Shown in pieces: positions 32,290 to 53,334 of a stretch of DNA of 64,000 nucleotides. The notes below the pieces were generated by a model, which saw only the letters and a program-made list of their open reading frames with translations, was not told where the DNA came from and ran no database searches. Origin of the DNA: Sulfurimonas paralvinellae (lineage in GTDB: Bacteria; Campylobacterota; Campylobacteria; Campylobacterales; Sulfurimonadaceae); contig NZ_CP041406.1 of the NCBI RefSeq assembly GCF_014905135.1, forward strand, positions 1,116,001-1,180,000. The letters run 5' to 3'. A program made the translations under genes and the position numbers. The first letter of the stretch is position 1. Every line of letters starts with the position of its first letter.

Positions 32290-32364
32290 TGGGGTATCGC
32301 CAAGCGGTAAGGCCTCGGTTTTTGGTACCGATATTCGGGGGTTCGAATCCCTCTACCCCATCCA
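32290..32364 (+). tRNA. tRNA-Gln (TTG)
   Basis: 75 bases. The acceptor stem is TGGGGTA/TACCCCA, the anticodon loop is TTTTGGT (anticodon TTG), and the T arm is GGGGGTTCGAATCCCTC; CCA is encoded. It lies 20 bases after tRNA-fMet. Its 3' end is the probable insertion site of the island, because a P4-type integrase gene follows in the same direction 181 bases downstream. Confidence 0.95.
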
Positions 32365-32466
32365 CCCTTTAATCTGAAAAAGTCTTAAAACTCCCCAAAC
32401 AACGAACTTTAAATAATTTATTAGTCTAACTTAATCTAGCTTATGCTATAGTAATCCCATCTTTTT

Positions 32467-32525
32467 AGGGGTATTTAAAGGGGTACATTAGATAAGTACC
32501 CTTATAACAGTTAAAATATACCCCT
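32467..32525. repeat. Nested inverted repeats upstream of the integrase gene
   Basis: The outer arms AGGGGTAT (32467-32474) and ATACCCCT (32518-32525) enclose inner arms GGGTAC (32481-32486) and GTACCC (32496-32501). All four share the GGGTA core, which also resembles the first bases of tRNA-Gln. Position between the attachment region and int suggests arm-type integrase sites, Xis sites or an int operator; the function is inferred. Confidence 0.5.
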
Positions 32526-32544
32526 ATATACTCAAGGGTTACCG

Positions 32545-33759
32545 ATGGCACGAACTGTTACACCTCTTACCGATACAAAAATAAAAACTGCAAAAGCCAA
32601 AGAAAAAGATTACAAGCTCTTTGATGGCGGTGGCTTATTTCTATTAGTTACAAAGCGAAACACAAAGCTATGGAGACTAAAGTATAAGTTTGACGGAAAA
32701 GAAAAACTTCTAGCTTTAGGTGCATACCCTGAAATAAGTTTATCAAAAGCAAGAGAGCTTAGAGAAGTAAATAAAAAACTCTTAGCAGATGGCATTAATC
32801 CAAATACAGCAAAGCAAGAAGTAAAAGAGCAACATCATAAAGAAGATACAAAACATCTACACACATTTAAAGCTATTGCACTTCAACGACTAGAAAAAAT
32901 CAAAGAAGATATTAGTGAACCACACTACAAAGGCACACTTAGAGGCTTTGTCAATGATACATTCCCTTATATTGGTAATAAACATATCGATACTATAACT
33001 GCTCAAGATATCATCACCCTACTCCGTAAAATGATGGAAAGAGATGTTAGAAACTCTACTGAAAAGGTTTATCAACAAATTGGAAAAACTTTCAAGTGGG
33101 CAATCGCAAATGGTCTTGCTCAACGAAATCCTGCAAGTGATATAGAAATCAGTGAAATAATTGGCAAATCTAAAGAAAAGCACTACCCTACAATTACAGA
33201 TGATACGGGCATAAGAAATCTTCTCACAAGTATTCATGAATATGGCGGTGAGTTGTCGACTAAATATGCTCTTTTAATGTTAGCATACACTTTTGTAAGA
33301 CCATCTAATATCAGATTAGCCTTATGGAGTGAAATAGATTTTAAAGCCAAACAATGGGTCATACCTGCAAAAAAAATGAAGACAGATGATGAGTTTATTA
33401 TACCTCTTTCTGATACTATTATAGAACTACTAAAAGATATACGAATATATTCAGGCAATAGCCTATATCTTTTCCCAAGTACAAAAAGTAAAACAACTCC
33501 TCTTAGCGATGGAGCGCTCTTAGGTGCAGTAAGAAGAATGGGCTATTCTACATATGAGTTCACTCCGCATGGCTTTAGAGCTATGTTTTCAACAATTGCA
33601 CATGAAAAAAGCCCCTTTAAATATGATGTAATCGAGACTCAATTAGCACACAAAATAGGCAATTCAGTCTCTCAGGCATATAACCGTGCTAAATATCTTA
33701 AAGAACGAGTACAGCTTATGACATGGTGGACTAATTATCTCGATAATATTCAAAAATAA
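32545..33759 (+). CDS. int: Tyrosine recombinase/integrase of the P4 type (DUF4102 N-terminus)
   Basis: 404 residues: N-terminal arm-binding DUF4102 domain (about 1-90, with LTDTKIKTAKAKEKDYKLFD), a SAM-like core-binding domain (about 100-190) and a C-terminal catalytic domain. Active-site residues are visible: Arg in VRPSNIRLALW, HGFR in TPHGFRAMF, His in TQLAHKIG and the nucleophile Tyr in QAYNRAKY. It should integrate and excise the island at tRNA-Gln. Nested inverted repeats precede the gene, and one of three dispersed 18-bp repeats lies 17 bases after its stop. It looks intact. Confidence 0.93.
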   Translation: MARTVTPLTDTKIKTAKAKEKDYKLFDGGGLFLLVTKRNTKLWRLKYKFDGKEKLLALGAYPEISLSKARELREVNKKLLADGINPNTAKQEVKEQHHKEDTKHLHTFKAIALQRLEKIKEDISEPHYKGTLRGFVNDTFPYIGNKHIDTITAQDIITLLRKMMERDVRNSTEKVYQQIGKTFKWAIANGLAQRNPASDIEISEIIGKSKEKHYPTITDDTGIRNLLTSIHEYGGELSTKYALLMLAYTFVRPSNIRLALWSEIDFKAKQWVIPAKKMKTDDEFIIPLSDTIIELLKDIRIYSGNSLYLFPSTKSKTTPLSDGALLGAVRRMGYSTYEFTPHGFRAMFSTIAHEKSPFKYDVIETQLAHKIGNSVSQAYNRAKYLKERVQLMTWWTNYLDNIQK

Positions 33760-33776
33760 ATATAGTATAGGTATAA

Positions 33777-33794
33777 CTAGGTTAATCGAAGTCC
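33777..33794 (+). repeat. Dispersed 18-bp island repeat, copy 1
   Basis: CTAGGTTAATCGAAGTCC, differing by one base from the two other copies at 49661 and 53062. It follows the integrase stop, within ATATAGTA-like sequence that is also found before copy 3. Confidence 0.8.
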
Positions 33795-33805
33795 AAATAT
33801 TTCAC

Positions 33806-34126
33806 TTAATTATCTTGTGTTATATCACTCATTTTTTGGATAAAACTCTTGCTAAGTTTATTGTTAAAATAAAATTTAGGTTTTACATAACCAGCATCTT
33901 TAAACTCATCAAGAGTAAATAAAAAATTCAAATACCTTTCTATTACTGCTATTTTTGTAGTATTTCGCTTCATATGTCCTTTAAACTTCTCATAAAAAAT
34001 TCGGATATCATCCTCAGAAGGGTCATGATATAAATCCATAGCATACAACTCAGCAAAATGTTTTTGCTTTAAACCTATTTTATCAATCCAAATTCTGAGT
34101 TCATTCTGTTTGTCATTAATTTTCAT
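33806..34126 (-). CDS. Hypothetical small protein, possible HTH
   Basis: An unrecognised 106-residue charged, helical protein. The N-terminal part GLKQKHFAELYAMDL resembles the first two helices of an XRE-type helix-turn-helix domain, but the spacing of the rest is unusual. It is convergent with the integrase gene and may be a regulator of the mobile element. The upstream ribosome site is weak. Confidence 0.55.
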   Translation of the reverse strand: MKINDKQNELRIWIDKIGLKQKHFAELYAMDLYHDPSEDDIRIFYEKFKGHMKRNTTKIAVIERYLNFLFTLDEFKDAGYVKPKFYFNNKLSKSFIQKMSDITQDN

Positions 34127-35482: not shown

Positions 35483-35728
35483 ATGAAAATAATTTCAGAA
35501 AAAACAGAAATAGAACCGATAGGTTTGAGACCAAAAATTGCCGCATTTTATTTAGCTATCGGAGTAAGTACTCTCTGGGCATTAGCCAAAAAAGAAATAT
35601 TAACACCTATTAAAATTACCCCAGGTGTTACAGTCTTTTCGAAAATGGAATTAGATGAACTATTTCAAGAAAAGCTCCGTATTGCAAAAACTAAGCAAGA
35701 AAATACTGAGTCTACAATGGAGTCATAA
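35483..35728 (+). CDS. AlpA/excisionase-like DNA-binding protein
   Basis: 81 residues with a MerR/excisionase-type winged helix: LRPKIAAFYLAIGVSTLWAL as the helix-turn-helix, then a wing TPIKITPGVTVFSKMELDEL. Proteins of this kind regulate integrase genes or act as Xis. A good AAAGGAAAG site precedes the ATG at 35483. It shares one base with mobC (TAATG), so the mobilisation genes are coupled to it. An overlapping reading frame beginning at 35431 lacks this support. Confidence 0.8.
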   Translation: MKIISEKTEIEPIGLRPKIAAFYLAIGVSTLWALAKKEILTPIKITPGVTVFSKMELDELFQEKLRIAKTKQENTESTMES

Positions 35729-36036
35729 TGTCAAAATTAAAACAAATAAAAGTAAATGTCACATGTACTGATTATGAAACAATACAACAGCAATCTGCCA
35801 AAAAAAATGTGACAATGGCAGAATATATTCGTCAAAAACTAGATATAACCATTGGTACACATGCTCCGCCTGCTTCGTCTACTTATTTTCAAAGAGCAGA
35901 CCCTGCTCTACTTTTTGAACTAAATACTATTTCAAAAAGTTTAAATATTATTGCAAGTAATATTACAAAAGATATAGAGATTGATAGTTTTTTACTCGTT
36001 TCCATTTACAAACAGGTAATGAGTTTAAAATGTTAA
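35728..36036 (+). CDS. mobC: MobC-like relaxosome accessory protein
   Basis: 102 residues. The N-terminal IKVNVTCTDYETIQQQSAKKN followed by MAEYIRQKL is the ribbon-helix-helix type start of plasmid MobC proteins, which bind near oriT and help the relaxase open the DNA. The C-terminal part (LFELNTISKSLNIIASNI) matches the MobC relaxosome region. It overlaps the relaxase gene by seven bases, the usual mobCA arrangement. Confidence 0.75.
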   Translation: MSKLKQIKVNVTCTDYETIQQQSAKKNVTMAEYIRQKLDITIGTHAPPASSTYFQRADPALLFELNTISKSLNIIASNITKDIEIDSFLLVSIYKQVMSLKC

Positions 36037-36524
36037 TTCTATTCGCAGGCACAAATGATGGCTGGGGGAACTATGTGATAAATGGAACAAAGAAGAAACC
36101 AAGAAATCACGAAAAGATAAAGGTTTTGAGAGGTGATATTACTCTTGGTGACCATATTACAAATCACCCAAACTATAGACAAAATGCTTATTCAATTATT
36201 TTAAGTTTCAAAGGAAAACCTTCTATAGAGACAATGACCCAAGTTCTTACCGAATTTGAACAGTTTTTTATGCATGGATTTGAAGCTTATGAGTACCATT
36301 TTGATGCAGTTTTGCATATGGATACAGATGATTATCATATTCATGTCCGTATTCCTAAATTCAATTTATATACGGGAACTCAACTGCAACTGTATTTGGA
36401 TAAGAAGGATAGATATCGAGTTAATCTTATTCGTAATCTTATTGATATAAAATATCATTTAGAAAGTCCGCAAAATAATAGACAACTTATACAAGAAGAA
36501 CAAGATTTTCACACTGCACAATAG
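36030..36524 (+). CDS. mobA: ColE1-type relaxase MobA, catalytic N-terminal part, ended by in-frame TAG
   Basis: 164 residues that carry the relaxase core: KVLRGDITLGDHI and YSIILSF near the start, and the metal-binding motif LHMDTDDYHIHVRIPKFN (about 92-109). The frame is stopped by TAG at 36522-36524, yet the same frame is open again for 10 codons and continues into the next 354-residue ORF, whose first residues are standard relaxase sequence. So a single amber codon cuts one relaxase gene in two. The catalytic part could still be made; DNA-binding and MobB contact regions would be lost. Confidence 0.8.
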   Translation: MLILFAGTNDGWGNYVINGTKKKPRNHEKIKVLRGDITLGDHITNHPNYRQNAYSIILSFKGKPSIETMTQVLTEFEQFFMHGFEAYEYHFDAVLHMDTDDYHIHVRIPKFNLYTGTQLQLYLDKKDRYRVNLIRNLIDIKYHLESPQNNRQLIQEEQDFHTAQ

Positions 36525-36554: not shown

Positions 36555-37619
36555 ATGAGTCGCTCAGTAATAAATAATTTCATAAGAGAGCTACATCAGG
36601 CATCCCTTATTAATTCTTTATCAGATGTAAAAAATGTATTAGAAGATACCAACTTAAAAATAATTAATACAGGCCATGACTATAGTCGAGACTTATATTA
36701 TATAACAGTTCAAAATAAATCTGAAAAAATAAAACTGACAGGAGATATATATAGTGCATACTTTTGGAAATATAGCAGAGAAAATAGAGAAAAACAAGTT
36801 GCAAATAACAAACAATATAGAGGAAGCTACAAATATAGTCCAGAAGAGTATAAAAGAGTTTCAGTTAAGCTCTACATTGCACTTGAAAAACGCTCAACAG
36901 AGATCAATGAAAGATATAGAAAACCAAGAGAAAGAGCTGCTAAGAGACTTGATAATTTACAACAAAAAAATCAAGAAAACATTATCCATCAGACAGAATC
37001 TTTCAAAAACAAAAGAGCAACAACTTCTCATACCAATTTTAGGGGTTCTGGCACTTACACTGATCGTTTTATTAATGCAAAGCTTGCAAATCAAAGAACA
37101 AAGAACACTGAGCAAATGGTTGATTCCAAATCAGTACAGGTTGAATCAAAAAGATGGACGATATATAGTTATACCATCGAGCAATCTAAGTTACTCGAAA
37201 AAAAGCAATACTTACTACTTAAAACTGGTGAACTAAATGGAAGAATTAACAAAAATATTATACGAAAAAATACACAAGATGGAACAGAACGAACAAGCAT
37301 TGATAGATTCGATGGACCAAGACAGGAAGCACTATATAAAAAAGCTAAATTCTATATGCAACGAATGGCTCAGACAAGAGACTGTAGAGAGCAATATAGA
37401 AAAAAGATTGCAATTATTGGAAAACAATGTGTTGATATTGAGCAAGACTTCAACTCATCTATCACAAAAATTGACACAATTATCAAAGTTCTTACAGAAG
37501 AAACCACAAATACAGGAATAGTCAACACTCCAAAAGAAACTAATACAAAAAGATTTGACTTGGATGAGACCTTATCTATTGAAGAGTATGCAGAAGAACT
37601 ATTTAGTCTCAATCTATAA
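36555..37619 (+). CDS. Relaxase MobA C-terminal part (same frame as 36030-36524)
   Basis: 354 residues read from the first ATG after the in-frame TAG. The start, SRSVINNFIRELHQ with LINSLSDVKNVLEDTNLKI and later KIKLTGDIYS, matches the linker region found after the catalytic core in MOB-type relaxases (xHxFIxxLVxxGLIxNRxDVxxxLE and the LKGxIY motif). The rest is Lys/Arg-rich and low complexity, in part because the same DNA also codes the mobB- and mobD-like proteins in another frame. It could be a separate polypeptide through re-initiation or the remnant of the intact gene. Confidence 0.7.
   Translation: MSRSVINNFIRELHQASLINSLSDVKNVLEDTNLKIINTGHDYSRDLYYITVQNKSEKIKLTGDIYSAYFWKYSRENREKQVANNKQYRGSYKYSPEEYKRVSVKLYIALEKRSTEINERYRKPRERAAKRLDNLQQKNQENIIHQTESFKNKRATTSHTNFRGSGTYTDRFINAKLANQRTKNTEQMVDSKSVQVESKRWTIYSYTIEQSKLLEKKQYLLLKTGELNGRINKNIIRKNTQDGTERTSIDRFDGPRQEALYKKAKFYMQRMAQTRDCREQYRKKIAIIGKQCVDIEQDFNSSITKIDTIIKVLTEETTNTGIVNTPKETNTKRFDLDETLSIEEYAEELFSLNL
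36754..37236 (+). CDS. MobB/MbeB-like mobilisation protein overprinted within the relaxase gene
   Basis: 160 residues read in the +1 frame within the relaxase C-terminal coding region. GTG start with AGGAG nine bases upstream. The protein is a long charged helix (about 10-88), one membrane segment at 91-109 (LLIPILGVLALTLIVLLMQ) and a tail with KWLIP and DGRYIVIP. This coiled coil, TM segment and W/DGR tail is the layout of MobB of ColE1 plasmids, which lies inside mobA in the same way. It probably anchors the relaxosome to the membrane. Confidence 0.75.
   Translation: MHTFGNIAEKIEKNKLQITNNIEEATNIVQKSIKEFQLSSTLHLKNAQQRSMKDIENQEKELLRDLIIYNKKIKKTLSIRQNLSKTKEQQLLIPILGVLALTLIVLLMQSLQIKEQRTLSKWLIPNQYRLNQKDGRYIVIPSSNLSYSKKSNTYYLKLVN
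37237..37521 (+). CDS. MobD/MbeD-like coiled-coil protein overprinted within the relaxase gene
   Basis: 94 residues starting immediately after the mobB-like stop (TAA then ATG), in the same +1 frame. It is predicted to be helical throughout with heptad-like Leu/Ile spacing and ends with SKTSTHLSQKLTQLSKFLQ, similar to MbeD-type proteins (NLSxQVxxLSxxL). In ColE1-type plasmids mbeD follows mbeB inside mbeA. Its order and size agree with that. Confidence 0.65.
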   Translation: MEELTKILYEKIHKMEQNEQALIDSMDQDRKHYIKKLNSICNEWLRQETVESNIEKRLQLLENNVLILSKTSTHLSQKLTQLSKFLQKKPQIQE

Positions 37620-38191
37620 GATATTCAATCTTTAAAATAGCCTTTTTGAGCCCATCATACTTAACTTTCATAGGCTCCAATTTCAATAGACTTGAAAGAG
37701 TAATACTCTTTTGAGTTTTTGCTCTCTCATCTAAAATTTTAGTATCTAAAAGATAAAAATCCCATTGTGATAAGTCAAGTGGATTAACACTCTCTTTATC
37801 AGTATGAGCCAACACACAAAATATATAAATATCTGACTTTCTTGTTCTGATAGTTGAGTTACTTTGAGAATCACCAGTAGGTTGAATACCAAAGATAATG
37901 TTAGATAATTTCTTTTGTTCCCAACTCTGAAGATAAGCTGATGATTTTATCTCTATTTTTAAACCGTTTTTAGTTTGTAAATCATAGGCATCCCATTCTT
38001 CTCGTGGGTTATCTAAAACATCTATTGTAGAAGCTACTATAAACTCTGCAAGAACTCCACGAAGTGCATTACCTAGTAGTTCCGAACTAGACCATTGCCA
38101 AAAGGATAGTACATCAATAGATAGTTTTTTATCATTAAAGTAAAATTTTTCTTTACCACTTTTTTTTGTAGTATGAATTGCTGATAAATTC

Positions 38192-38199
<8 letters not shown>
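37609..38199 (-). CDS. Putative PD-(D/E)XK nuclease, last gene of the R-M operon
   Basis: 196 residues. The fold is suggested by E52 in VLAEFIVA, D70/D73 in EEWDAYDL, and E83-x-K85 in KIEIKSS, the spacing of PD-(D/E)XK nucleases, followed by YLQSWEQKKLS. I know the sequence type only as an uncharacterised family linked to defence loci. It overlaps the preceding nuclease gene by eight bases and is the last gene of the leftward R-M operon; its end overlaps the relaxase 3' end by 11 bases. Confidence 0.65.
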
Positions 38200-39096
<897 letters not shown>

Positions 39097-39100
<4 letters not shown>

Positions 39101-40347
39101 AACTCACCTTTAAATGCTTGGTCTAAAATGGAAGCTTTTAATGCTACTAAACTTTCCATTTTTTCTTTTTGAACTGATTTTATTTTTTCTATTTTTTGTG
39201 AAATTTCATCTAAATATTTAACAACTTTTTGTTGGATTTGAATAGGAGGAAGTGGAATATCAATCTCTTTTAATTGTTTAACCGGCGGCATATTTGGTAT
39301 AGCAGCACCCTTTTTAACTGCATTGAAAAATCCATTATTCATTAAATTATTCCAAAAATATACAAATATTTTATCAATTATAATATCTTTATCCAATGTT
39401 AATTTTAATAAGGCTTGGTTAATTATACCTTTTGTATAGTCATTTGGGATAATAGCTAATTTGCCTAAATATACACCAGAACAGCTAATTATTATATCTC
39501 CACTTTTTACTTCAAATCCTTTAAGCTCATTAAATTTATCTTCATTAATGAAATATCTTTCCATTGAAAAATCATTATTTAAAGCGTGATATTGTTCATA
39601 TACTAAATATCCACTTTCAACAAAAAATGACTTCTTCAATGCACTTCCAAATGGACCTCTTTTAATTGATGTTTTTTCTTTAGTTACAACATCTTTCATC
39701 TTAGTGTATTTATACTTCCCTTCCAACTCTTCAAAAATATCATTCAAAACACTCCCCATAAACACATCAGCATCATCCATATTTTTTTGATGTAGGGCTA
39801 TTGATTTATCTATTTTTTCAAAAAGGTTATCTAGTTTAGAAACTATTTTTTGTTGTTCTGAAAGTGGTGGAACAATAATATTCATTTTTTTTAAATGTGT
39901 TGGTCCAAAGTTTTTAATTGCTGTTCCCGTATAAGCCTTATTGTATTGGTTTGAAAAGTTATCACTATTTAAAAAGTATTTTAAATATTCTCTATCTAAA
40001 GTAAGTACATCATTAGGTCTAAACCTGATAATACTGGTATTAAGCACAGCAGGTAAATCACATTTTCTTACAACTGCCATTTTTCCTAAAGAACCAGATG
40101 AAGCAACTAATATATCATTTTCTTCAACTAAAAAATGTGAATATTTTTTTTCAATAGTTTCTAAAGGAAGAAAATTTGTATCTTTTAAATTTAAGGTTTC
40201 ATCTTTGTTAAATGTTCTAATATTAAGTAATGGAATACCCTCTTTAGACATTTGTTTTTTTAGAATTCCAGGACCTTCTTGAAAGAAAACAACTTCTTTT
40301 AAATCTTTATATTCCCATCCATCAGGAAGCTCATACAACTCATTCAT
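39097..40347 (-). CDS. hsdS: Type I restriction-modification specificity subunit HsdS
   Basis: 416 residues with two target recognition domains, each followed by a conserved helix: PLSEQQKIVSKLDNLFEKID (about 159-178) and PPIQIQQKVVKYLDEISQKIE (about 368-388). The repeats determine the two halves of the target sequence and bind two HsdM subunits. It overlaps hsdM by eight bases. No break is visible, so it should be functional. Confidence 0.92.
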
Positions 40348-41827
40348 CTATATCTTTCCCAATCAATATAGTTTCAATCTCATACATCAAATCATTTATT
40401 TCTTTGTTATTTTCTTTAATATTTTCAACTAACTCTAATGGAGATTTATGCTCTATAACTTTGATATTGTTGGGGTTTTTTGCTGATATATCAAACTCTT
40501 TAATATCATTGATATTTACTATCCAAGAGTTATCTGTAAGCTCTCCATTTTCCCATACATCTAAAAATTCTTTGAAGTGTTCATACTGGATAGGTTTATT
40601 TTTTGTAAGTTTATATGGTGGATTTACTTCATAGTAAAATATATCTGAGGTAGAGCCATTTCTATCAAAGAAGATTACATTCGTTTTAACACCACTATAA
40701 GGTAAAAATATCCCTGCTGGGAGTGAAAGTATAGTGTGCACATTAAATCGCTCTAAAAGCTCTTTTTTTACTGCTTGAAAAGCATTATTTGTTTGAAACA
40801 ATACGCCCTCTGGAATAACTACACCACACTTGCCATTTAACTTTAAATAGTTCATCATATGTTGGAGAAACAGTAACTCAGTAGCATTGGATTTTACAGG
40901 AAAGTTTTGTTGGATACTATCGTTCTCTTTTCCACCAAAAGGAGGATTTGCTAAAATACAATCAAATCTATCTTTTTCTTCTAATCCTCTTATATCTTTT
41001 GTAAGAGTATTCGTTTTTGAAATGTTTGGTGATTCTATACCGTGGAGTATCATATTCATAACACCCATTACATAAGAGAGTGGAGTTTTTTCATTTCCAA
41101 AAAATGTATCTTCATTTAAAAACTTTAACTGCTCAGTTGAAAGTTCTCTTTGCTCATTCTTTTCAACATTGGTATATCTCATATGATTGTAAGCTTCTAT
41201 GAGAAAACCACAACTCCCCACTGCTGGGTCATATACTGTTTGACCTACTTGTGGATTTACAACATCAGTGATAACTTTAATAAGTGGACGAGGAGTATAA
41301 AACTCTCCACTATTTCCACCATCACTCCCCATATCTTTTAGAAGTTTTTCATAGATAAGTGAAAGTTGAAACAGATCAGCTTGATTGTGAAAATCCATAA
41401 CATCTATAATATCCAACACCTCTCTAAGAGTATGCCCATTAGCGATACGATTATCTAAAAATTCAAAGATAGCACCGATTTTATACTTAATAGATTTAGC
41501 ATTCTCAGTAATAGACTTGAAACCTTTGAGGTAAGGAAACAACTCTTTATTTACAAATTCTAAAAGGTCTTCACCACTCTTAGCATTTATGAGGTCAATC
41601 TTCCCATCTTTCTTAGGACAAGCCCAATTACTCCACTGGAACTTATCATCAAGTATGTAGGCGTAGTCCTGCCCATTAAGTAGTGCCTCATCAGCTTTTG
41701 AGTCTTCTAAATCACTAAGAAATTTTAAAAAGAGTATCCAAGATATTTGCTCTGTGTACATCATAGCACCGCTAATACCGTCATCTCTTCGTAGTATGTC
41801 TGTTATTCTATTTATTTTACTTTCCAT
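40340..41827 (-). CDS. hsdM: Type I restriction-modification DNA adenine methylase HsdM
   Basis: About 495 residues. The N-terminal helical HsdM domain is followed by the SAM-binding DPAVGSCGF (about 200-208) and the N6-adenine catalytic motif NPPFGG (about 294-299). I place the start at ATG 41827, which has AAGG upstream and overlaps the phosphatase stop by 11 bases; a GTG at 41842 is the longer option. It methylates the target adenine in complex with HsdS. The phosphatase gene fused upstream by overlap is unusual for hsd loci. Confidence 0.93.
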   Translation of the reverse strand: MESKINRITDILRRDDGISGAMMYTEQISWILFLKFLSDLEDSKADEALLNGQDYAYILDDKFQWSNWACPKKDGKIDLINAKSGEDLLEFVNKELFPYLKGFKSITENAKSIKYKIGAIFEFLDNRIANGHTLREVLDIIDVMDFHNQADLFQLSLIYEKLLKDMGSDGGNSGEFYTPRPLIKVITDVVNPQVGQTVYDPAVGSCGFLIEAYNHMRYTNVEKNEQRELSTEQLKFLNEDTFFGNEKTPLSYVMGVMNMILHGIESPNISKTNTLTKDIRGLEEKDRFDCILANPPFGGKENDSIQQNFPVKSNATELLFLQHMMNYLKLNGKCGVVIPEGVLFQTNNAFQAVKKELLERFNVHTILSLPAGIFLPYSGVKTNVIFFDRNGSTSDIFYYEVNPPYKLTKNKPIQYEHFKEFLDVWENGELTDNSWIVNINDIKEFDISAKNPNNIKVIEHKSPLELVENIKENNKEINDLMYEIETILIGKDIDE

Positions 41828-42506
41828 TATTTGCCTTAACACTTATTATTTTAAAAGTTTCTATATTGTAATTATCAAAAATGACTGCACTTAGTTTATT
41901 ACCATATACACAGCCTGTGTCTATCCCTAATGCAAATTTACTGTGTTTAACTTCATCAAACCATTGATGACCATACACTATAAATCCCTGGTTACCATCA
42001 TAAGTGTCAGCCCAAAAAATGGAATCTTCATTTTCTTTACCATAAGTTATAAAATTATCATAAGTATCAAGGTATCTCATTCTAAGTATTTTAGAGTTTT
42101 CTTTTTTTGTTAAATTGTTTAAGTTGTGATAATTTTGTAGTCCACCATGTAAAATAGTTATGTTTTCATATTTGAAAAACAATGGTAAGTTCTTTAAAAA
42201 TTTAATATCTTGCTTATCTAAATTTTCAATAATATTTTTTTCATCTTCATCTAAAGATATAGGATTTTTTATATTGAAATTTTCATGTTCTAAGTATCTG
42301 ACTAATTTATCTTCATGATTGCCTATAACAGATTTTATATTGTGTTCTTGTATATATTTTAGAAGTTTAACAGAGTTTTTACCTTTTGTGATAATATCTC
42401 CAACACAAACTTCTATATCACTTTTATCTGGATTTATCTTTTTTCTTAGAGATATAAACTCATCGTAACAACCGTGTATATCTCCATAGACTATTAGTTG
42501 ATTCAT
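41817..42506 (-). CDS. PPP-family (ApaH/PrpE/lambda-type) metallophosphatase
   Basis: 229 residues with the complete set of PPP motifs: GDIHGCYDE at 8-16, GDIITKG near 37-43, GNHEDKL near 62-68, then LHGG and GHQWFDE, ending in IDTGCVYGNKLSAV. These bind two metal ions and remove phosphate from Ser/Thr/His/Asp-proteins or nucleotides. It overlaps the receiver-HEPN gene by four bases and hsdM by 11, so it is made together with a kinase-like protein and a receiver protein. Reversal of that phospho-signal is the most attractive role but is only an inference. Confidence 0.85.
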   Translation of the reverse strand: MNQLIVYGDIHGCYDEFISLRKKINPDKSDIEVCVGDIITKGKNSVKLLKYIQEHNIKSVIGNHEDKLVRYLEHENFNIKNPISLDEDEKNIIENLDKQDIKFLKNLPLFFKYENITILHGGLQNYHNLNNLTKKENSKILRMRYLDTYDNFITYGKENEDSIFWADTYDGNQGFIVYGHQWFDEVKHSKFALGIDTGCVYGNKLSAVIFDNYNIETFKIISVKANNGK

Positions 42507-43429
42507 ATTTGATTTTTTATATCCACTAAAAGTTTTTTATATTTTCGTATATCTTTTCTAATTTGAATACAATGTTCTGCTGTAAATTCTAAATCTTCAC
42601 CATTAGGATATTTTAAAATGTTAATACCATCTTCTCTAGGTTCTTCTTCCTGATGTGCAAATACATTTCTTTTATCGATAATTTCTTTTTTATAATTTTC
42701 GTGTATAAATTCTATTGTATTACATTTTTGTTTTTTTATTTTAAAAACTGTTCTTGATTTTTTAAAAGTATCATAAAAAAAGTTTTTTTGTAATTCTTCT
42801 AAATTTATTTCATCATAAGTACATTCTGAATCTTCAACTTTAACAAGACAATTTAAATTTTTTAATTCTTCTTTTATTTTTGAAAAAACCTTTTCTTTAA
42901 TATATTTTTTAAAATCGCTATCTGCTTGCGAATTATATTTTTTAATAATTTGCTCTTTTATTCTATCAAGCTCAGCGACCTCTGCCATAATCAAACCACG
43001 AAGATTATTAACATCTTGGGTTTTTTTAATTGTAATATCTATAATTTTTTTTACTTTATCTTTAAGTTCATCTCTACTAGAAGTGAAAATACCTTCGACA
43101 AAATGTTCATTTAATTTCCTGTTTAACTCTTCATATTGAGATGAGTAAAATACTATTTCGGTATATACTTTTTCATCTCTTATTTTTGTTATTATAGTGT
43201 TACCTTCATCTTTTGTTTCTTGATTACCTAAATCTAAATCAATTAATAATAAATCATATTCAGATGTATTTTGACAGCCTATATTCTTTTCAAAATCAGA
43301 AAAATTATTTATTTCTTGAACCTCACATACAAAACCTAATCCTTCTATATATTCTGCAACCTGTCTTTTATCTCTTCTAATAGATTTAGGATTGTCTTCA
43401 ATCCATAAAATTTTATATTCTAATTTCAT
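42503..43429 (-). CDS. Receiver domain fused to a HEPN-like domain with RX4H motif
   Basis: 308 residues. Residues 1-130 form a two-component receiver: acidic pocket E11/D12 in WIEDN, phospho-acceptor D64 in LLLIDLDLG and switch Ser in VFYSSQ 94-99; the usual final Lys is not clear. Residues 140-308 are helical and contain RNVFAH (254-259), the R-x4-H signature of HEPN RNases, in a long helix context. It overlaps the GHKL ATPase gene by four bases, so they probably act as sensor and responder. A phosphorylation-controlled RNase is the simplest idea; a catalytically silent HEPN is possible. Confidence 0.7.
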   Translation of the reverse strand: MKLEYKILWIEDNPKSIRRDKRQVAEYIEGLGFVCEVQEINNFSDFEKNIGCQNTSEYDLLLIDLDLGNQETKDEGNTIITKIRDEKVYTEIVFYSSQYEELNRKLNEHFVEGIFTSSRDELKDKVKKIIDITIKKTQDVNNLRGLIMAEVAELDRIKEQIIKKYNSQADSDFKKYIKEKVFSKIKEELKNLNCLVKVEDSECTYDEINLEELQKNFFYDTFKKSRTVFKIKKQKCNTIEFIHENYKKEIIDKRNVFAHQEEEPREDGINILKYPNGEDLEFTAEHCIQIRKDIRKYKKLLVDIKNQI

Positions 43430-45951
43430 AATTTAAGCCTTAATAAAAATTTAATACCTGTATCAAGTTTATACACATTTATTGTAGATTGATTCATTTC
43501 TTCTAAAATTTCTTTTATGTGGTAAAGTCCCAACCCTGAACCTTTTGTAGTAGTTACACCCATTTCAAAAATTGAATCCTCAGCTATTATTGTATTATCT
43601 AAGCCTAAACCATCATCAATATATTCAATTTCAAGATGTTCATCAGTTTTTATAAAATTCAAAGTTACATTTTTTGCTTTTGCTTTTTTTGAATTATTTA
43701 GTAAATTATCAATTATTATATTGACTTTGATTGGTTCAAAGCTACAAATGTATTGTAAATTATTTGTATTAATTTCAATTATCAATTCTTTATTTGTTGT
43801 TATTTCGTATATATTTCTAATATATTCATCTATAAATTTTACTAAATCTTTTGTAACATTAGATGCTGTTGATAAAAAATCTTCTTTTGTGATATATTTG
43901 TTAATCAAGGATATTTTATCTAACTCAAATGATGCATCTTTTAAATATTCATACACTTCATCATTAATACTTGTATTTTTGTTTAACATATCTACAACAT
44001 CTAAAATACAATCTTTTGCTGTTTTAGTGTACAAGCCTATATGATGTTGAAATGCAATAAGCTCCTTAACATCTTTAGATTGAACTGTTTTTAAATAGGT
44101 TAACTCTTCATCTTTCTTTTTATTTTTTAATTTCGCTGCTTCTAGTTCTTTTTTTAATTTTGTTTCACTATTTTTTAATACTAATATTTTTTTGTCAAGT
44201 TCCTTATATGATTCTTCTTTATCTATTACATCATCAATAAGTTCATTAGTATTCTTTTTACTAATTAAAAAAGTTATTTTATTTGTTAATCTTTTATCAG
44301 CTACAATTTTATATACTTTTTTAACAAATTTTTTTAAATCATTTGATATCGCTGATTGTGGTAATTTTGAGAATTCTTTTAAAAATTTTGTGATATTTTT
44401 TTGTATTAATAAATTTTCTTTTTCCTCAAGTAAATATAGTAGTATTTTATCATCAATATTTATATCTAAGCTATCTTTTGCATCAATTCCTATAATCTTA
44501 AAGATATTTTTACTAATATTTTTCTTCTTTTCTTCTTCAGATAATAAGTACACTTCTTTATCTTTGTTCCAATTTTTGCTAAAAGTAAGTTCTCGTATAT
44601 AAGATTCCGTATATTCCTTGGAAACACTATCCCATCGTATTCCATTTACCACATATCTCTCTAATCTTTTAAGTGTTTTGTAAAAAAAACCATTATTCTT
44701 TTTTTGAGCTGTTGTAGATTTAGTTGATACATGTATAAGCTGTTTAAACTTTTCATTATGGACAATTCCCTCTCTACTTGATATAACATGATATTGTTCA
44801 TCTCTATCCTCTATTTCAATTCTTCCAATAACTTCACGATTACTTAAATATCTACTTCTCCCTTGATTTTTTCGCACTTCCATACCAAATGCATCATTAT
44901 CTATATCTCCATATGGTGGTATTCTAAAGCCATTTATAAACAAATAAACTGAACCAAATTCTACACTTCGCATTTGCATTTGTTTTTGAAAATATGCTTT
45001 GGCATATGGATTTAAATACATTAAAATAATTTTAACACCTTTTAAATCAGGAAACTCTGTATTTTTTTCTATAGTCTTAAATACAACCTTATCTCTATCT
45101 TTAAGCTGTGTGATTATTTGAGTTCCATCTTCACTAATAACTGACTGTATATATGTTGTATCAAAGTTTAATTTATCAAAAAATTTATTTGTAATTTCAC
45201 CATTGATTTTTTTATAATATGCAGTTTCATTCTTATCTTCTATTTCTTTTACATGTAAATGTATCTTAAATCCACCACTATCAACTTGACTTTTATTTAT
45301 TAATTTTTCTAAAGAAGCTTTTAATGTAGAAAATTTTTGATAATTTAAAACTTCATTAAATAAACTATTTTGATTTATTTTTATCCATTTAGTTCGTAGG
45401 CTTACTATTTGCACTATTGTACCTGATGTATTTATTTTATAATTTGTCTCATCAAATACTTCTTTCATACTAACTTCTCTTAATTTCATTGGTATTTGAT
45501 TTATTTCAACACTATAGTCTTCAATATTTTCAAAATCTTCCCAATTAATTTGAAGTTGATAAATTTTTCCTTTTGTTTGTTTAGTGAAAATATTGAGCTT
45601 TTTTCCAAGCCTATCACACGAGAACCTACCAATTCCTTTATTCCCAGCCTGTAAGCGATTGTTCTGTGCATTCTGTACTCTTTTTATAGAATATGCTAGG
45701 TTTAGCCATTTCTGCAAAATATCTTCTTTAGACATTCCCTTACCATTATCTGATATAATTATCTCATGATTTAAAGTATCTACACTTTTTAAATTTTTAA
45801 ATTCTACATCAACTTTTGATGCTCCAGCATCATAAGAGTTTTTAACAAGCTCCATAACAGCTACATTATCATCATTTATAAGTTCTTTACCGATGATGTT
45901 TTTAATATTAACATGAGATAAAAAGTGGACATCTTCCCATTTTGTTGACAT
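43426..45951 (-). CDS. Double-GHKL protein: MutL/MORC/Hsp90-type ATPase plus histidine-kinase-type ATPase
   Basis: 841 residues. The N-terminal ATPase has ELVKNSYDAGA (34-44), DNGKGMS (68-74) and NKGIGRFSCDRLGKK (104-118), as in Hsp90/MORC/MutL-type proteins, with a transducer-like region to about 400. A coiled coil covers about 575-620. Then HH at 636-637 in LIAFQHHIGLY may hold the phospho-acceptor His, followed by a kinase-type ATP domain: IIIDNLLNNSKKAKAK 745-760, DDGLGL 779-784 and GSGLGLYHIKEIL 804-816. It shares one base with the C5 methylase gene upstream. It probably senses DNA or methylation state and signals to the receiver-HEPN protein. Confidence 0.8.
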   Translation of the reverse strand: MSTKWEDVHFLSHVNIKNIIGKELINDDNVAVMELVKNSYDAGASKVDVEFKNLKSVDTLNHEIIISDNGKGMSKEDILQKWLNLAYSIKRVQNAQNNRLQAGNKGIGRFSCDRLGKKLNIFTKQTKGKIYQLQINWEDFENIEDYSVEINQIPMKLREVSMKEVFDETNYKINTSGTIVQIVSLRTKWIKINQNSLFNEVLNYQKFSTLKASLEKLINKSQVDSGGFKIHLHVKEIEDKNETAYYKKINGEITNKFFDKLNFDTTYIQSVISEDGTQIITQLKDRDKVVFKTIEKNTEFPDLKGVKIILMYLNPYAKAYFQKQMQMRSVEFGSVYLFINGFRIPPYGDIDNDAFGMEVRKNQGRSRYLSNREVIGRIEIEDRDEQYHVISSREGIVHNEKFKQLIHVSTKSTTAQKKNNGFFYKTLKRLERYVVNGIRWDSVSKEYTESYIRELTFSKNWNKDKEVYLLSEEEKKKNISKNIFKIIGIDAKDSLDINIDDKILLYLLEEKENLLIQKNITKFLKEFSKLPQSAISNDLKKFVKKVYKIVADKRLTNKITFLISKKNTNELIDDVIDKEESYKELDKKILVLKNSETKLKKELEAAKLKNKKKDEELTYLKTVQSKDVKELIAFQHHIGLYTKTAKDCILDVVDMLNKNTSINDEVYEYLKDASFELDKISLINKYITKEDFLSTASNVTKDLVKFIDEYIRNIYEITTNKELIIEINTNNLQYICSFEPIKVNIIIDNLLNNSKKAKAKNVTLNFIKTDEHLEIEYIDDGLGLDNTIIAEDSIFEMGVTTTKGSGLGLYHIKEILEEMNQSTINVYKLDTGIKFLLRLKL

Positions 45952-47147
45952 TATAAAATTTCCTTTAAAATTATTCCCGCCTGTTCAGCAAAAAGAGGAG
46001 GAATAGCATTACCTATTTGAGTGTATCTAGGTACATCAACTTTTCTTCTTTCGCCACCTGTTGTATATTTTCCCTTAAACTCATAGTTGTCAGGAAAAGA
46101 TTGTACTCTTGCATATTCTCGTACTGTCAAAATTCTTGGCTCACAATAGTGGATATAATCATCAGGTAAGGTTGTAAGAGTTGGGGTACAAGAATCTTTA
46201 CACAATGGGACAACCGTATGTTTTTTTAAATTATATTTTTTTCTTAATTCATCATTTATAGACTTATTTGGTTGGGCATTATTTAAAATATATTGAAACT
46301 TTTCTACTGTTTCTTTCCTATGTTTAGCAAACCTATGGCTATCAGCTACTTTTTTAGTTAAAGGTTTCCCGCTTCTCATTAGTTTTTGATAGCTACTTTT
46401 AGATTTTGAATATAATCCTGCATTAAACCGTTTTGTATCAGGAGATTCTACTTCACCATTTGATTGAAGTAAATCTGAAATTGCTTCACTTAATGAAGTT
46501 TTATCTTTAGTTAATTTTTTCTCTTTAAAAAAGTTTGCTCTATTATTTTTAATAGATTCAAAAAAATCTCTAGCCTTACCTTTTCTTGTACCAACTAAAA
46601 TAAATCTTTGTCTTTTTTGGGGAACACCATACTCTGAAAAATCGACAATAGTTCCAGATACATTGTAACCAAGACTTTCAAGTTTATTAACTACATAAGT
46701 AGAATAAGCTTCACCTCGCTTATTTCCCTTTTTAAACCCAATAGTAAAACCTTTTACATTTTCAAAAAACAATATTTCAGGCTGAACTAATTCTACAAAT
46801 TTTATATATGAATCAATGAGTTTATTTCTATCATCTTTTTCTTTTCTTCTTCCTGCCATAGAGAAACCTTGACAAGGAGGGCCTCCAGCAATAAGTTTAA
46901 TTTTACCCCTTAAAGCAATTAAATTTTCTTCATGGTTTTTTATGACTTCATTAATATCATGATTCTTTTTTTCTAACCAATTTGGCCACTCGAAGTTTTG
47001 ATTTTTATCTATTTGATTATATTTTAATGTTTCAAAAGCATCTGCACTTTTTTCTACAGCAAACAAGCCTTTCCAACCTGCATTATGCAATCCTAAAGCA
47101 AGTCCACCACAACCAGAAAACAGATCAATATAAGTTAATTTTTTCAT
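45951..47147 (-). CDS. DNA (cytosine-5)-methyltransferase
   Basis: 398 residues with all main C5-methylase motifs: IDLFSGCGGLALGL (motif I, 7-20), GGPPCQGFS with catalytic Cys92 (motif IV), ENVKGF (VI, 129-134), a QKRQRF motif (VIII), and RVQSFPDNYEF plus QIGNAIPPLFAEQ (IX/X). The enzyme modifies cytosine in a sequence defined by the variable region (about 190-320). It is placed between hsdR and hsdM, in the same operon as a GHKL ATPase, so the locus holds both adenine and cytosine methylases. AAGGAG lies 11 bases before the start. Confidence 0.92.
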   Translation of the reverse strand: MKKLTYIDLFSGCGGLALGLHNAGWKGLFAVEKSADAFETLKYNQIDKNQNFEWPNWLEKKNHDINEVIKNHEENLIALRGKIKLIAGGPPCQGFSMAGRRKEKDDRNKLIDSYIKFVELVQPEILFFENVKGFTIGFKKGNKRGEAYSTYVVNKLESLGYNVSGTIVDFSEYGVPQKRQRFILVGTRKGKARDFFESIKNNRANFFKEKKLTKDKTSLSEAISDLLQSNGEVESPDTKRFNAGLYSKSKSSYQKLMRSGKPLTKKVADSHRFAKHRKETVEKFQYILNNAQPNKSINDELRKKYNLKKHTVVPLCKDSCTPTLTTLPDDYIHYCEPRILTVREYARVQSFPDNYEFKGKYTTGGERRKVDVPRYTQIGNAIPPLFAEQAGIILKEIL

Positions 47148-47236
47148 TTAATGATAGCTCCTTTTAGTAGTTTGCACGAGTAAATACTGAACCATAGTAA
47201 AATATTCATTAATAAGATGTAAAAAAATCAATTTAA

Positions 47237-49570
47237 TCATCTATAAATCTCCCTCTGTAACTCAAAATACTCATCTCTCATCTTAGGGATACCACCAAAG
47301 TTATTTGCAACTTCTCTCACACTTCCAAGCCCACTTAAATCAACCAACTTGCCAAGTTTATCCTCATCAAGCTCTTTAACACCATCTTTTTTATATCTCT
47401 CTAATATGAATTCTATAAACTCTTTAGCTTTTTCATTATGATGTTTTTCTATAAACTCTGAGTGCTCTACTGCGAAGACTCTCTCGCTTCTTGTTTTAAT
47501 ATCTAGGTTGAAAGATATATGGGTTAGGATGTCGTATATATCACTATTTTGAGCTTCAAATATTACTTTTAAATCATCAAGTTGAGATTCATCTATATTC
47601 ATCTCTTTTAGCTTGTTTAGTAAATCTTTTCTATTGCTAGGGTTACTCCATATCTCTCTTAATCCATCTTCATCATTGTAAAACTTACCAAGTACACCTA
47701 TAAGTAGTTCTAGGTAATCCTCTGTTTTTAAAGGTACTCCATCCATACCAACATAGGTTGTTTCAATGTTGATAACTTTGAGCTTTTTACCTTTGATGTC
47801 TATGGTTACTTTTTCATTAGTGGGTGCTTCAACTTCAGGTGGCTCAGTTGGTGGTCCACCTTCATCTCCCTCTATTCCTTTTCCTTTCGGTGGTCTTGGG
47901 GTTTTTTCTATTGGTTCATCTTCTCCATCCCATTTAGGGTCATAAAATAGATTTGTAGCTCCTACAAAATCCATAATAGTAAAAAAATCTTTCCCCTCAA
48001 ATACTCTAGTTCCACGACCTATAATTTGTTTAAATTCTGTCATTGATTTTATGGGTGCTGTTAAAACTACATTTCTAACATTTTTGGCATCCACACCAGT
48101 TGTGAGCATTTTTGAACTTGTAAGGATAGTAGGTATATCTCTATCATTGTTTTGAAACATCTCTAAGAAATCTCTACCTATATCTCCCTCATCTGATGTT
48201 ACTCTTACACAGTAGTTATTGTCTTTGATAGTTTTAAATTTATCTATGGCTACTTTCATATCGAGTGCATGCTTTTGGTTTACACAAAACACTATAGTTT
48301 TATCCATAGTATTCATATTTTGGAGTATAGTTTTTGCGATTAGTTCGGTTCGTTTAGGGATAACTACTTGCTTTTCAAACTGTTCTAGTTCCACTATCTG
48401 TTTATCTAGTTCCCCAGTTATGATGTCATTAGGGTCAAATCTGTACTCATCTATGTTTGTTTGGATTCTTTTTACTTTGTAAGGTGTTAAGAAACCATCA
48501 TTGATACCATCTTTAAGTGAATATTCATAGATAGGTTCTCCAAAGTATTTGTAAGTATCTCCATTATCATCTCTCTTTGGAGTTGCTGTTAAACCTAAGT
48601 GAACAGCACTACCAAAGTGATTTAAAATATCTCTCCAAGAGCTTTCATCATTTGCACTACCACGATGACACTCATCAATAATGATTAAATCAAAAAAGTT
48701 AGGTGGATACTGTTTATAATATGCAGTTACATCGTCTTCTGACTCTTCTTCTGTTATATCAATCATTCTGTTTTTATTTTCTGCTATTGATTGATATATT
48801 GCAAAAAAGATATTACCAGCAGTTGGAACTTTTCCACCTCTTTTTTTGATAATTTTCCCATTTATCTCAATACAATCTTTCTCTAGTGGATTAAATGTAT
48901 TCATAGATTGGTCTTTGAGAACATTTCTATCAGCTAGGAAAAGTATCTTTGGTCTTCTATCTGCATTATCTCTGTTCCACTTAGATTGAAATAGTCTATA
49001 TGCGATTTGAAAAGCTATGTATGTTTTACCAGTTCCAGTTGCTAGTGTAAGTAACATTCTATCTTTATTTCCTGCGATAGCTTCTATGGTTTTTTGAACT
49101 GCGATTTGTTGGTAGAAACGAGGTTTCATCATTCCCTCAATATAAAAAGGGTGAGTAATTACATCTTTGGCTTTAGGTGTAACTTTCCTATATTTTCGCT
49201 CAAAAAGTTCATCAGGAGTTGGATAGTTTTCAATAAACTGACCTTTACCCTCTAAAAGTGAGTGTTCATATATTTTATGTCCATTAGTTGTATATACAAA
49301 ATCTATCTTCAATCGCTGGGCATAGTTTATAGATTGTTGTAAACCATCTAGTGGGTCTTTAGATTCAGATTTTGCTTCAATGATTGCAAGGTTAGTATTT
49401 TTGTAGGTCAGCATGTAATCCACAAAGTATCTTTTACCTCGTTTACCACCAATAAGCTTTCGTCCATCAGTAAAATAATATTCTCTTACTATGTTGGATT
49501 CCAACCAACCGCTATCCTTTATAGATGGGTCGATAAGTTTTGAGCGAGTATCTGATTCTGAGTATGCCAT
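47237..49570 (-). CDS. hsdR: Type I restriction endonuclease subunit HsdR (EcoEI family)
   Basis: 777 residues. The N-terminal HSDR_N nuclease has D51, E65 and K67 (VDYMLTY then IIEAKS). An SF2 motor follows with Walker A ATGTGKT at 177-183, DECHRGS as motif II and QIIGRGTRVFEG as motif VI, and then the EcoEI-type C-terminal helical domain (about 640-777), which contacts HsdM/HsdS. It translocates and cuts unmodified DNA. It is the first gene of the leftward operon and is separated by 89 bases from the C5 methylase. A dispersed 18-bp repeat lies 90 bases upstream. Confidence 0.93.
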   Translation of the reverse strand: MAYSESDTRSKLIDPSIKDSGWLESNIVREYYFTDGRKLIGGKRGKRYFVDYMLTYKNTNLAIIEAKSESKDPLDGLQQSINYAQRLKIDFVYTTNGHKIYEHSLLEGKGQFIENYPTPDELFERKYRKVTPKAKDVITHPFYIEGMMKPRFYQQIAVQKTIEAIAGNKDRMLLTLATGTGKTYIAFQIAYRLFQSKWNRDNADRRPKILFLADRNVLKDQSMNTFNPLEKDCIEINGKIIKKRGGKVPTAGNIFFAIYQSIAENKNRMIDITEEESEDDVTAYYKQYPPNFFDLIIIDECHRGSANDESSWRDILNHFGSAVHLGLTATPKRDDNGDTYKYFGEPIYEYSLKDGINDGFLTPYKVKRIQTNIDEYRFDPNDIITGELDKQIVELEQFEKQVVIPKRTELIAKTILQNMNTMDKTIVFCVNQKHALDMKVAIDKFKTIKDNNYCVRVTSDEGDIGRDFLEMFQNNDRDIPTILTSSKMLTTGVDAKNVRNVVLTAPIKSMTEFKQIIGRGTRVFEGKDFFTIMDFVGATNLFYDPKWDGEDEPIEKTPRPPKGKGIEGDEGGPPTEPPEVEAPTNEKVTIDIKGKKLKVINIETTYVGMDGVPLKTEDYLELLIGVLGKFYNDEDGLREIWSNPSNRKDLLNKLKEMNIDESQLDDLKVIFEAQNSDIYDILTHISFNLDIKTRSERVFAVEHSEFIEKHHNEKAKEFIEFILERYKKDGVKELDEDKLGKLVDLSGLGSVREVANNFGGIPKMRDEYFELQREIYR

Positions 49571-49660
49571 TAAACCCTACTAAAATATTTTAATCTATTT
49601 TAGCAAAATTTAACTACTATACAGATGAAAATTCTATAATTCAAAAAGGAAAACATATAG

Positions 49661-49678
49661 CTAGGTTAATCAAAGTCC
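49661..49678 (+). repeat. Dispersed 18-bp island repeat, copy 2
   Basis: CTAGGTTAATCAAAGTCC, identical to copy 3 at 53062; identity extends six bases further upstream (ATATAG). It lies between hsdR and the unknown small genes. No plus-strand gene precedes this copy. Confidence 0.85.
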
Positions 49679-49683
49679 TAACT

Positions 49684-50085
49684 TTAAGAATAAAAAGATT
49701 TCACTTTATCTATATTTTCCTGAGATGCTAAAATAGAATCGTCAATTTTTATATCTTTTAGCATCTTGAATCTATACACACTATTCATAGTTTTAAAAGT
49801 AAGTAAATCACCATTTATCTCATAATCTTCAAGCATAGATGTTCTAAAAACAACTTCACCAAATCGACCAAAAAAGTATAAAACACCATCTCTAAAAGTA
49901 ATTTTTCCATCACGGTGCTTATATTCATTTAAAATCTCAATATTTGTTGAATCAATAAACATTACATTAGATTTTTTACTGATTATATTGGGTTTCTTAT
50001 CGCCCTTATACTCTTTTACTATCTCATCTCCGTTATCATCAAAATCCAAAGTAATATATTTAGCCTGAACCATTTCTGCTATCAA
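49684..50085 (-). CDS. Hypothetical protein, probably 3' part of an interrupted gene
   Basis: 133 unrecognised residues, soluble and beta-rich, with repeated strand patterns (KITFRDGVLYFFGRFGEVVF). The TTG start used here is poor. The same frame is open upstream to an ATG at 50193 that overlaps the stop of the preceding gene (ATGATGA), apart from a single TAA at 50104-50106. The gene was therefore probably 169 codons long and coupled to its neighbour, and now carries a nonsense codon. Expression of this fragment is uncertain. Confidence 0.5.
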   Translation of the reverse strand: MIAEMVQAKYITLDFDDNGDEIVKEYKGDKKPNIISKKSNVMFIDSTNIEILNEYKHRDGKITFRDGVLYFFGRFGEVVFRTSMLEDYEINGDLLTFKTMNSVYRFKMLKDIKIDDSILASQENIDKVKSFYS

Positions 50086-53043: not shown

Positions 53044-53061
53044 GCAAATATAGTAATATAG

Positions 53062-53079
53062 CTAGGTTAATCAAAGTCC
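53062..53079 (+). repeat. Dispersed 18-bp island repeat, copy 3
   Basis: CTAGGTTAATCAAAGTCC, part of a 24-bp stretch identical to copy 2. It sits downstream of the XRE stop in a setting much like that of copy 1 after the integrase stop. Confidence 0.85.
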
Positions 53080-53334
53080 CACATCTATAAATTTATTACA
53101 GCAATTCTAAAAGCAAATGCAGTTTTATCTCCTTTTTAACTAACTAATTTTTCACTTCTCTCGCTAAAAATACTTCGTAAAGTATGTTAAATAGTAATTA
53201 CTATGTTTCAAGTAGCGCTGATTATTATTTATATGGGAAACACGAATGTTGTTTTTGAGATAGTTTAAATATCCAGACATAAAGCTGTCAATCTAAAATC
53301 TTATACTTCTTCCATTAAATTAGAGGAGTTTAAG
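53080..53334. other. Intergenic region before the AAA-FtsZ operon
   Basis: 255 bases with no open frame that I can support. It contains a 6+6 inverted repeat ATACTT-CGTA-AAGTAT at 53170-53185, the 17-bp shared element at 53274-53290, a TATACT -10-like hexamer at 53302-53307 and a clear ribosome site (GAGGAG) before the AAA gene. Confidence 0.5.
53274..53290 (+). promoter_or_regulatory. Shared 17-bp control element, copy 1 (GACA-N6-TGTC)
   Basis: CAGACATAAAGCTGTCA, identical to the copy at 56991. The core is a GACA/TGTC inverted repeat with a 6-base spacer. There are exactly 44 bases between its end and the ATG of the AAA gene. It is a probable operator or promoter element shared by two transcription units. 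Confidence 0.7.

Follow-up and report, generated by a model that had tools for sequence, protein, structure and literature searches.

A nine-gene operon was analysed in a window of 64,000 nucleotides from Sulfurimonas paralvinellae (contig NZ_CP041406.1, positions 1116001–1180000), part of a 2.08-Mb, two-contig genome rated 100% complete. The operon occupies positions 37609–49570 of this window as nine intact open reading frames (ORFs) on the minus strand, none of which carries a frameshift. The genes are, in order, hsdR, a C5 cytosine DNA methylase, a double-GHKL protein, a receiver–HEPN protein, a PPP-family enzyme, hsdM, hsdS, a DUF5655 protein and a small last protein; with hsdR, hsdM and hsdS all present, the operon encodes a type I restriction–modification (R-M) system. 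A gap of 89 nt separates hsdR from the methylase gene, which overlaps the GHKL gene by 1 nt. Further overlaps join GHKL to receiver–HEPN (4 nt), receiver–HEPN to PPP (4 nt), PPP to hsdM (11 nt), hsdM to hsdS (8 nt), hsdS to the DUF5655 gene (4 nt) and the latter to the last gene (8 nt). The original prediction, made from the sequence by a model, described nine leftward genes, eight of them joined by overlaps of 1–11 bases, and reading of the ORFs and junctions bears this out. Most of its domain calls also agree with Pfam and NCBIfam profiles, the exceptions being the PPP protein, which is not clearly a protein phosphatase, and the last protein, which has no family match.

Four of the nine genes constitute an inserted cassette, flanked by the stop codon of hsdR and the start of hsdM (41838–47152, minus strand). 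The first cassette gene (45951–47147) encodes the C5 cytosine DNA methylase (Pfam DNA_methylase, 4.4e-59), which shares 74–80% identity with the methylases of other Campylobacterota cassettes. The second (43426–45951) encodes the GHKL protein, in which a MORC-type ATPase (approximately residues 5–430; Pfam HATPase_c_3) is fused to a histidine kinase core (approximately residues 620–840) comprising a DHp segment with His636 and an HATPase_c domain. In the predicted structure (predicted local distance difference test, pLDDT, 78), a MORC-like ATPase is followed by a DHp–CA kinase core; the N-terminus of the model matches MORC2, MORC3 and SMCHD1, and its C-terminus matches HK853 and ZraS. NCBIfam NF050001 matches the N-terminal ATPase module (2.5e-17). 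PADLOC gave this protein only weak, partial matches.

Across 58 GHKL proteins, the MORC ATPase residues E34, N38, D68/G70/G72, G103, K105, G106 and G108 are invariant, as are the kinase residues H636, N753, G781 and G804/806/808; D779 is conserved in more than 90%. The C-terminal half thus has the acceptor histidine and the N, G1 and G2 boxes of a histidine kinase. A kinase in a phosphorelay had been proposed for this gene, and the catalytic residues retained in distant relatives, together with the predicted fold, agree with that proposal.

The third cassette gene (42503–43429) encodes a receiver domain (residues 1–125, with Asp64), for which the Response_reg match is weak (4.5e-4), followed by a predicted HEPN domain (approximately residues 140–308, with Arg254, Asn255 and His259). 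Asp64, Arg254 and His259 are present in every one of 69 receiver–HEPN proteins, with Asn255 in 96% of them, and the numbering of D64 and H259 in the original prediction was right. The receiver has an acidic residue at position 11 and Ser or Thr at position 96 in all 69 members, and D12 in 91%. In the structural model (pLDDT 87; predicted template modelling score, pTM, 0.84), the receiver leads into a helical domain, one helix of which bears both R254 and H259; an RX4-6H motif thus lies on a helical domain, as in HEPN proteins. A Foldseek search with the full model returned receivers as its best Protein Data Bank (PDB) matches, and these dominate the list. HEPN Pfam matches in other members are commoner in scans restricted to the C-terminal part than with the full protein: among 54 members scanned in this way, MAE_28990 was found in seven, RiboL-PSP in six and Swt1 in six. 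The HEPN fold is therefore predicted from the motif, from the helices of the model and from the Pfam matches in other members.

The fourth cassette gene (41817–42506) encodes a PPP-family metallophosphoesterase (Metallophos, 4.3e-12), which is closest to ApaH, PrpE and the phosphatase domain of Pnkp by profile and to PDB entries 2qjc and 4j6o. The gene is confined to Campylobacterota among the 78 loci described below, and is regarded as accessory for that reason. A phosphatase had been envisaged as a core part of the relay; instead, this ApaH/Pnkp-like enzyme is a Campylobacterota add-on. It would probably reset or limit the response, for example by healing the 2′,3′-cyclic-phosphate RNA ends of the HEPN type, as Pnkp-like enzymes might, or by hydrolysing Ap4A in the manner of ApaH.

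The ends of the cassette were located with blastn. Nucleotide homology to the hsd genes of relatives is lost at the stop codon of hsdR (47237–47233) and regained at 41837, where the start of hsdM is still ten bases away; homology to stand-alone cassettes (G455, G446 and L032) spans 47152 to 41896. The flanking hsdR (47237–49570; NCBIfam NF046051, 9.7e-268; ResIII and EcoEI_R_C) belongs to the EcoAI/FtnUII family and has close homologues (88–92% identity) in eight other Sulfurimonas genomes. Where the contig is long enough, hsdR is followed there by hsdM (87–93% identity) and a divergent hsdS (34–38%). In the window, hsdM (40340–41827; N6_Mtase, 7.6e-64; HsdM_N) starts at an ATG at 41827, its ORF being open from a GTG at 41842, and hsdS spans 39097–40347 (Methylase_S, 7.6e-31), both on the minus strand.

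The content of the hsdR–hsdM interval differs genome by genome across the eight relatives. It comprises YhcG/OLD-like genes and Fic in G402, zeta-like and YobI-ATPase genes in G288, similar genes together with Fic in G407, Fic with other genes in G128 and G421, RhuM in G448 and another GHKL protein in G420, the contig ending at this point in the last two. The eighth, G310, was considered as a possible empty slot and was rejected, as the gap between hsdR and hsdM, read by eye, retains only the 5′ part of a Fic gene. Profiles identify Fic in G402 and G456; in the other genomes it was assigned by similarity. The interval in Sulfurimonas is a cargo slot, as judged from these alignments, and the cassette is a mobile insert in it. 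A second case of insertion is found in G456, where the end of a receiver–HEPN gene, a PPP gene (82% identical) and Fic precede hsdM and hsdS. Elsewhere in Sulfurimonas the cassette is free-standing, surrounded by housekeeping genes. The cassette of G455 (the same as L029/L177), which is 94% identical to the window in the MORC part, also stands alone.

Fic is the commonest slot gene (hsdR–hsdM interval of L161–L167, L169 and L171). L163 also has an Abi_2-like gene, which separates hsdM from hsdS.

To determine how widely the cassette occurs, 84,980 genomes were scanned with an alignment of the GHKL protein, and the best 80 of 485 candidate loci were examined; removal of two duplicates left 78 non-redundant loci, which come from at least 12 phyla as judged from record titles, one archaeal record included. 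A C5 methylase lies within three genes of the GHKL gene in 74 of the 78 loci and a receiver–HEPN gene in 71, with both present in 67. Seven loci have no receiver, two of which are cut by a contig edge. A reverse search from the receiver–HEPN protein, performed in 396 genomes of the phylum of the Pedobacter locus, found the GHKL and methylase genes adjacent in 7/7 examined loci, two of which were apparently already in the GHKL-derived set. The arrangement is thus not due to chance, because the module recurs elsewhere. Searches of plasmids by tblastn with receiver–HEPN proteins gave no match.

Genes for type I restriction are rare companions of this core. When detected with the window's own subunits, by which distant homologues may escape, hsd genes occur in the contiguous same-strand run of only 2/78 loci, and the regular hsd linkage that would characterise a PrrC-like system is not seen. 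A dedicated endonuclease beside the methylase, as in type II R-M, is likewise not a regular feature: in 26 of the 78 loci the contiguous same-strand run holds no further gene of at least 90 amino acids, and the core can therefore do without a restriction endonuclease. Among 93 neighbour proteins scanned with Pfam, restriction families are a minority (N6_Mtase 4, LlaJI 4, Vsr 3, HNH_2 3, HsdM_N 2 and Fic 2).

Since sister genomes have unrelated genes in the slot and the core is mostly found without hsd, it is not supported that the cassette is part of the type I system. The original prediction had treated the operon as a single pathway in which failure of DNA cleavage or methylation sets off the relay, and such a trigger is not supported either; the comparisons indicate that it joined two separately evolving units, an hsd operon and a mobile cassette. 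It had also held that the link to type I restriction would be chance if the trio of methylase, GHKL and receiver–HEPN genes usually occurred alone and its insertion between hsdR and hsdM were unique to this genome. The neighbourhood statistics it called for agree with the first part, the trio usually being found without hsd, and disagree with the second, given the insertion in G456 and a Patescibacteria locus (L047) in which the trio is followed by hsdR and hsdM.

Analysis of evolutionary distances revealed that the kinase core and the receiver co-diverge. With the other parts controlled, their distances correlate (partial Mantel r 0.28, 0/2000 permutations), and the MORC part and the receiver show no correlation. 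Relative to the window, loci L022, L023 and L026 retain 75–76% identity in the MORC part and 78% in the methylase, but only 29–34% in the kinase core and 31–32% in the receiver. The closest cassette, L029, is 94% identical in the MORC part, 85% in the kinase and 88% in the receiver, but only 41% in the HEPN domain. This is the pattern that a matched kinase–receiver pair with a fast-evolving effector would show. Together with the invariant catalytic residues and the predicted folds, it supports the earlier proposal of a kinase–receiver relay ending in an RX4H HEPN domain.

The trio looks like an undescribed switch: the cell's DNA would be marked as self, and the appearance of foreign DNA would lead to death or stalling of the cell. 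It is proposed that the C5 methylase marks host DNA, and that the MORC ATPase at the N-terminus of the GHKL protein acts as a clamp on DNA, reacting when it is unmarked or otherwise abnormal. ATP-driven dimerisation would then allow the C-terminal kinase core to phosphorylate His636, from which the phosphoryl group would pass to Asp64 of the receiver–HEPN protein. Phosphorylation may release or dimerise the HEPN domain, whose R254-N255-x3-H259 site would cut RNA, such that the cell is stalled or dead before phage can mature. We consider it somewhat probable that the element is a mobile two-component immunity cassette that has landed in a type I hsd cargo slot and provides methylation-linked abortive defence. 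The identity, mobility and linkage of the module, its full set of catalytic residues, the modelled folds and the co-divergence of kinase and receiver are results of the analysis, whereas gating by methylation, DNA as the ligand, activation by phosphorylation, RNase activity, defence and the part played by PPP are inferred.

Several observations weigh against this interpretation. The β5 lysine of the receiver is not clearly conserved, and phosphorylation could therefore be atypical. The window's own receiver–HEPN protein has no HEPN Pfam match, and a PDB sequence search with its HEPN segment found no HEPN of solved structure. With the other parts controlled, no covariation is seen between the MORC part and the methylase (r 0.07, 250/2000 permutations), and sequence-specific sensing of the methylase's own sites consequently gains no support. 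Furthermore, in the slot the cassette and hsd share one operon, and cross-talk between them is possible.

The same parts could serve selfish addiction, an explanation that seems unlikely but retains some weight. The methylase would then be an antidote: on loss of the cassette, methylation would dilute, the MORC kinase would sense bare sites and the HEPN toxin would fire, so that the cassette is kept by post-segregational killing and not for defence. Its transfer in one piece from stand-alone sites to the hsd slot or back, the many loci that have no restriction enzyme alongside and a related layout on a conjugative plasmid all fit such a life style. The same molecules would serve defence too, however, and the window copy adjoins other defence-like genes; sequence cannot separate the two.

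The earlier view, that the HEPN domain is a second line of type I restriction, restrained by HsdRMS and freed when restriction is blocked, appears improbable. It draws on the single operon with its 11-nt overlap of PPP and hsdM, on the second slot case and the L047 arrangement, and on the precedent of PrrC in EcoprrI (PMC2610378), where an RNase gene likewise lies within an hsd operon. The type I enzyme, however, keeps PrrC silent, and PrrC has an ABC ATPase, whereas the cassette is mostly independent of hsd: 76/78 loci lack hsd in the operon, the slot holds unrelated genes in relatives, and close cassettes such as that of G455 stand alone.

We give equally little credence to a regulatory two-component system that governs expression of the methylase or of R-M genes, with the HEPN domain as a processor of specific mRNAs. 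Linkage to the C5 methylase is the strongest of all, and receivers usually regulate; the output, however, is a HEPN domain with invariant Arg and His rather than a DNA-binding domain, and the rapid divergence of this domain in the closest pair (41%, compared with 88% for the receiver) is toxin-like. That the helical C-terminus is a non-RNase binding or dimerisation domain, the output being something else, is very improbable: its sequence matches are weak and no solved relative is found by sequence, but Arg and His are invariant in 69/69 members, Asn is 96% conserved and three HEPN Pfam families match.

Parts of this layout have been reported. A C5 methylase, an HATPase_c_3/HATPase_c protein and a receiver were described in 2021 as a putative two-component system with type I and II R-M neighbours (Bellieny-Rabelo 2021, PMC8011034). 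These Response_reg_2 (PF19192)/HEF_HK (PF19191) loci resemble the cassette in gene set and order and in R-M surroundings, the same adjacency being seen in 67 of the 78 loci. They differ in that PF19192 matches only one of 69 receivers, weakly (0.0017), and PF19191 none of 58 GHKL proteins. The PF19192 profile also had no match in the S. paralvinellae genome, eight cassette genomes or control genomes. Receivers of the PMC8011034 type in L184 and L185, two loci compared from the order of the Acinetobacter locus, have 542–567 amino acids and no shared RNxxxH site, and a HEPN output is not mentioned in that paper.

MORC and paraMORC ATPases of R-M operons (Iyer 2008, PMC2292703), such as those of BbrUII/HgiDII enzymes, have in common with the cassette an N-terminal ATPase and a methylase partner, but their C-terminus is a nuclease where a histidine kinase core is predicted here. 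The paraMORC–Ymh HEPN fusions in R-M loci (Anantharaman 2013, PMC3710099) likewise couple a MORC-like ATPase to a HEPN RNase, whereas here the HEPN domain is on a separate receiver protein and would be reached via a phosphorelay. Detocs, as described in PMC11728103, similarly combines a kinase with a response-regulator effector for defence; it has a separate phosphate-buffer protein, DtcB, whereas the cassette has no second receiver gene but has a C5 methylase and a MORC sensor. A figure legend in the DefensePredictor paper (PMC13092281) lists HATPase and REC domains, which might refer to this system.

PADLOC 2023 contains no model for the window's receiver–HEPN protein. The assertion that this is not a named system stands as far as PADLOC 2023, Pfam and NCBIfam go, although the layout of C5 methylase, MORC/kinase and receiver was already in PMC8011034. 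The new points are the receiver–HEPN output, its conservation and the insertion in a cargo slot; subscription journals lay mostly outside the literature search, and an earlier description is possible.

If the proposed switch is correct, a His–Asp phosphorelay and self-marking by DNA methylation would be joined in a single immune device that acts through an RNase and extends over at least 12 phyla, with one archaeon among its carriers. A role would thereby be assigned to a domain arrangement that was predicted in 2021 without an effector, and a prokaryotic MORC protein that signals rather than cuts would come to light. The locus also shows how type I hsd operons serve as docking slots for unrelated toxin and abortive-infection cargo, which is a caution against reading one operon as one pathway. 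A broader and more tentative suggestion is that the cassette belongs to a broad, undescribed class of methylation-gated two-component immunity, in which a C5 methylase marks self and a soluble MORC-kinase reads the state of DNA and phosphorylates a receiver with an interchangeable output. HEPN RNases would be one such output; a Campylobacter plasmid, the Response_reg_2 loci and a separate, possibly protease-like gene of Stenotrophomonas and Chryseobacterium would provide others. Such a class would be a two-component counterpart of restriction, with killing in place of DNA cleavage.

Matches to the GHKL query occur in 43 plasmid records of Campylobacter, of which one was examined: the conjugative Campylobacter jejuni plasmid NZ_CP044170.1 (L210:4953–9418) carries a MORC-like kinase, a 340-amino-acid response regulator with another output domain and a convergent C5 methylase. 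At L208:4745–9459 and L036:8772–13889, a short receiver (212–234 amino acids) is followed by a separate protein of 226–245 amino acids with no Pfam match. The Stenotrophomonas copy of this protein contains ‘SHGS’ and ‘ISCGTA’, which recall caspase/CHAT-type proteases, and may be an alternative effector. A decaying copy of the cassette is seen in G334 (L021:10625–11553), where the receiver–HEPN gene is split by a stop and the PPP gene is gone.

The two remaining genes of the operon lie downstream of hsdS on the minus strand. The DUF5655 protein (38192–39100; DUF5655, 2.2e-12) matches the PADLOC candidate PDC-S18 (4.7e-128) and has a weakly nuclease-like N-terminus (NucS_C, 0.001). The product of the last gene (37609–38199) has zero matches in Pfam, NCBIfam and PADLOC, and its earlier PD-(D/E)XK label is unverified.

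The operon probably lies within an integrated island. Genes for tRNA-Met and tRNA-Gln, followed by a tyrosine-integrase-like gene, occupy 32193–33759 and mark a likely edge; repeats of the tRNA end that could be attachment sites were looked for, and none was clear. Mobilisation genes on the plus strand (35483–36524), encoding helix-turn-helix, NikA-like and MobA/VirD2-type relaxase proteins, lie near the 3′ end of the operon. The repeat TATAGCTAGGTTAATCAAAGTCC is present in three copies, one of them more diverged, at 33771–33807 after the integrase gene, at 49655–49691 just upstream of hsdR and at 53056–53092, and is perhaps a regulatory site. Two adjoining genes at 57528–61608, of DUF262/GmrSD type by eye, are possibly a second defence system in the island.

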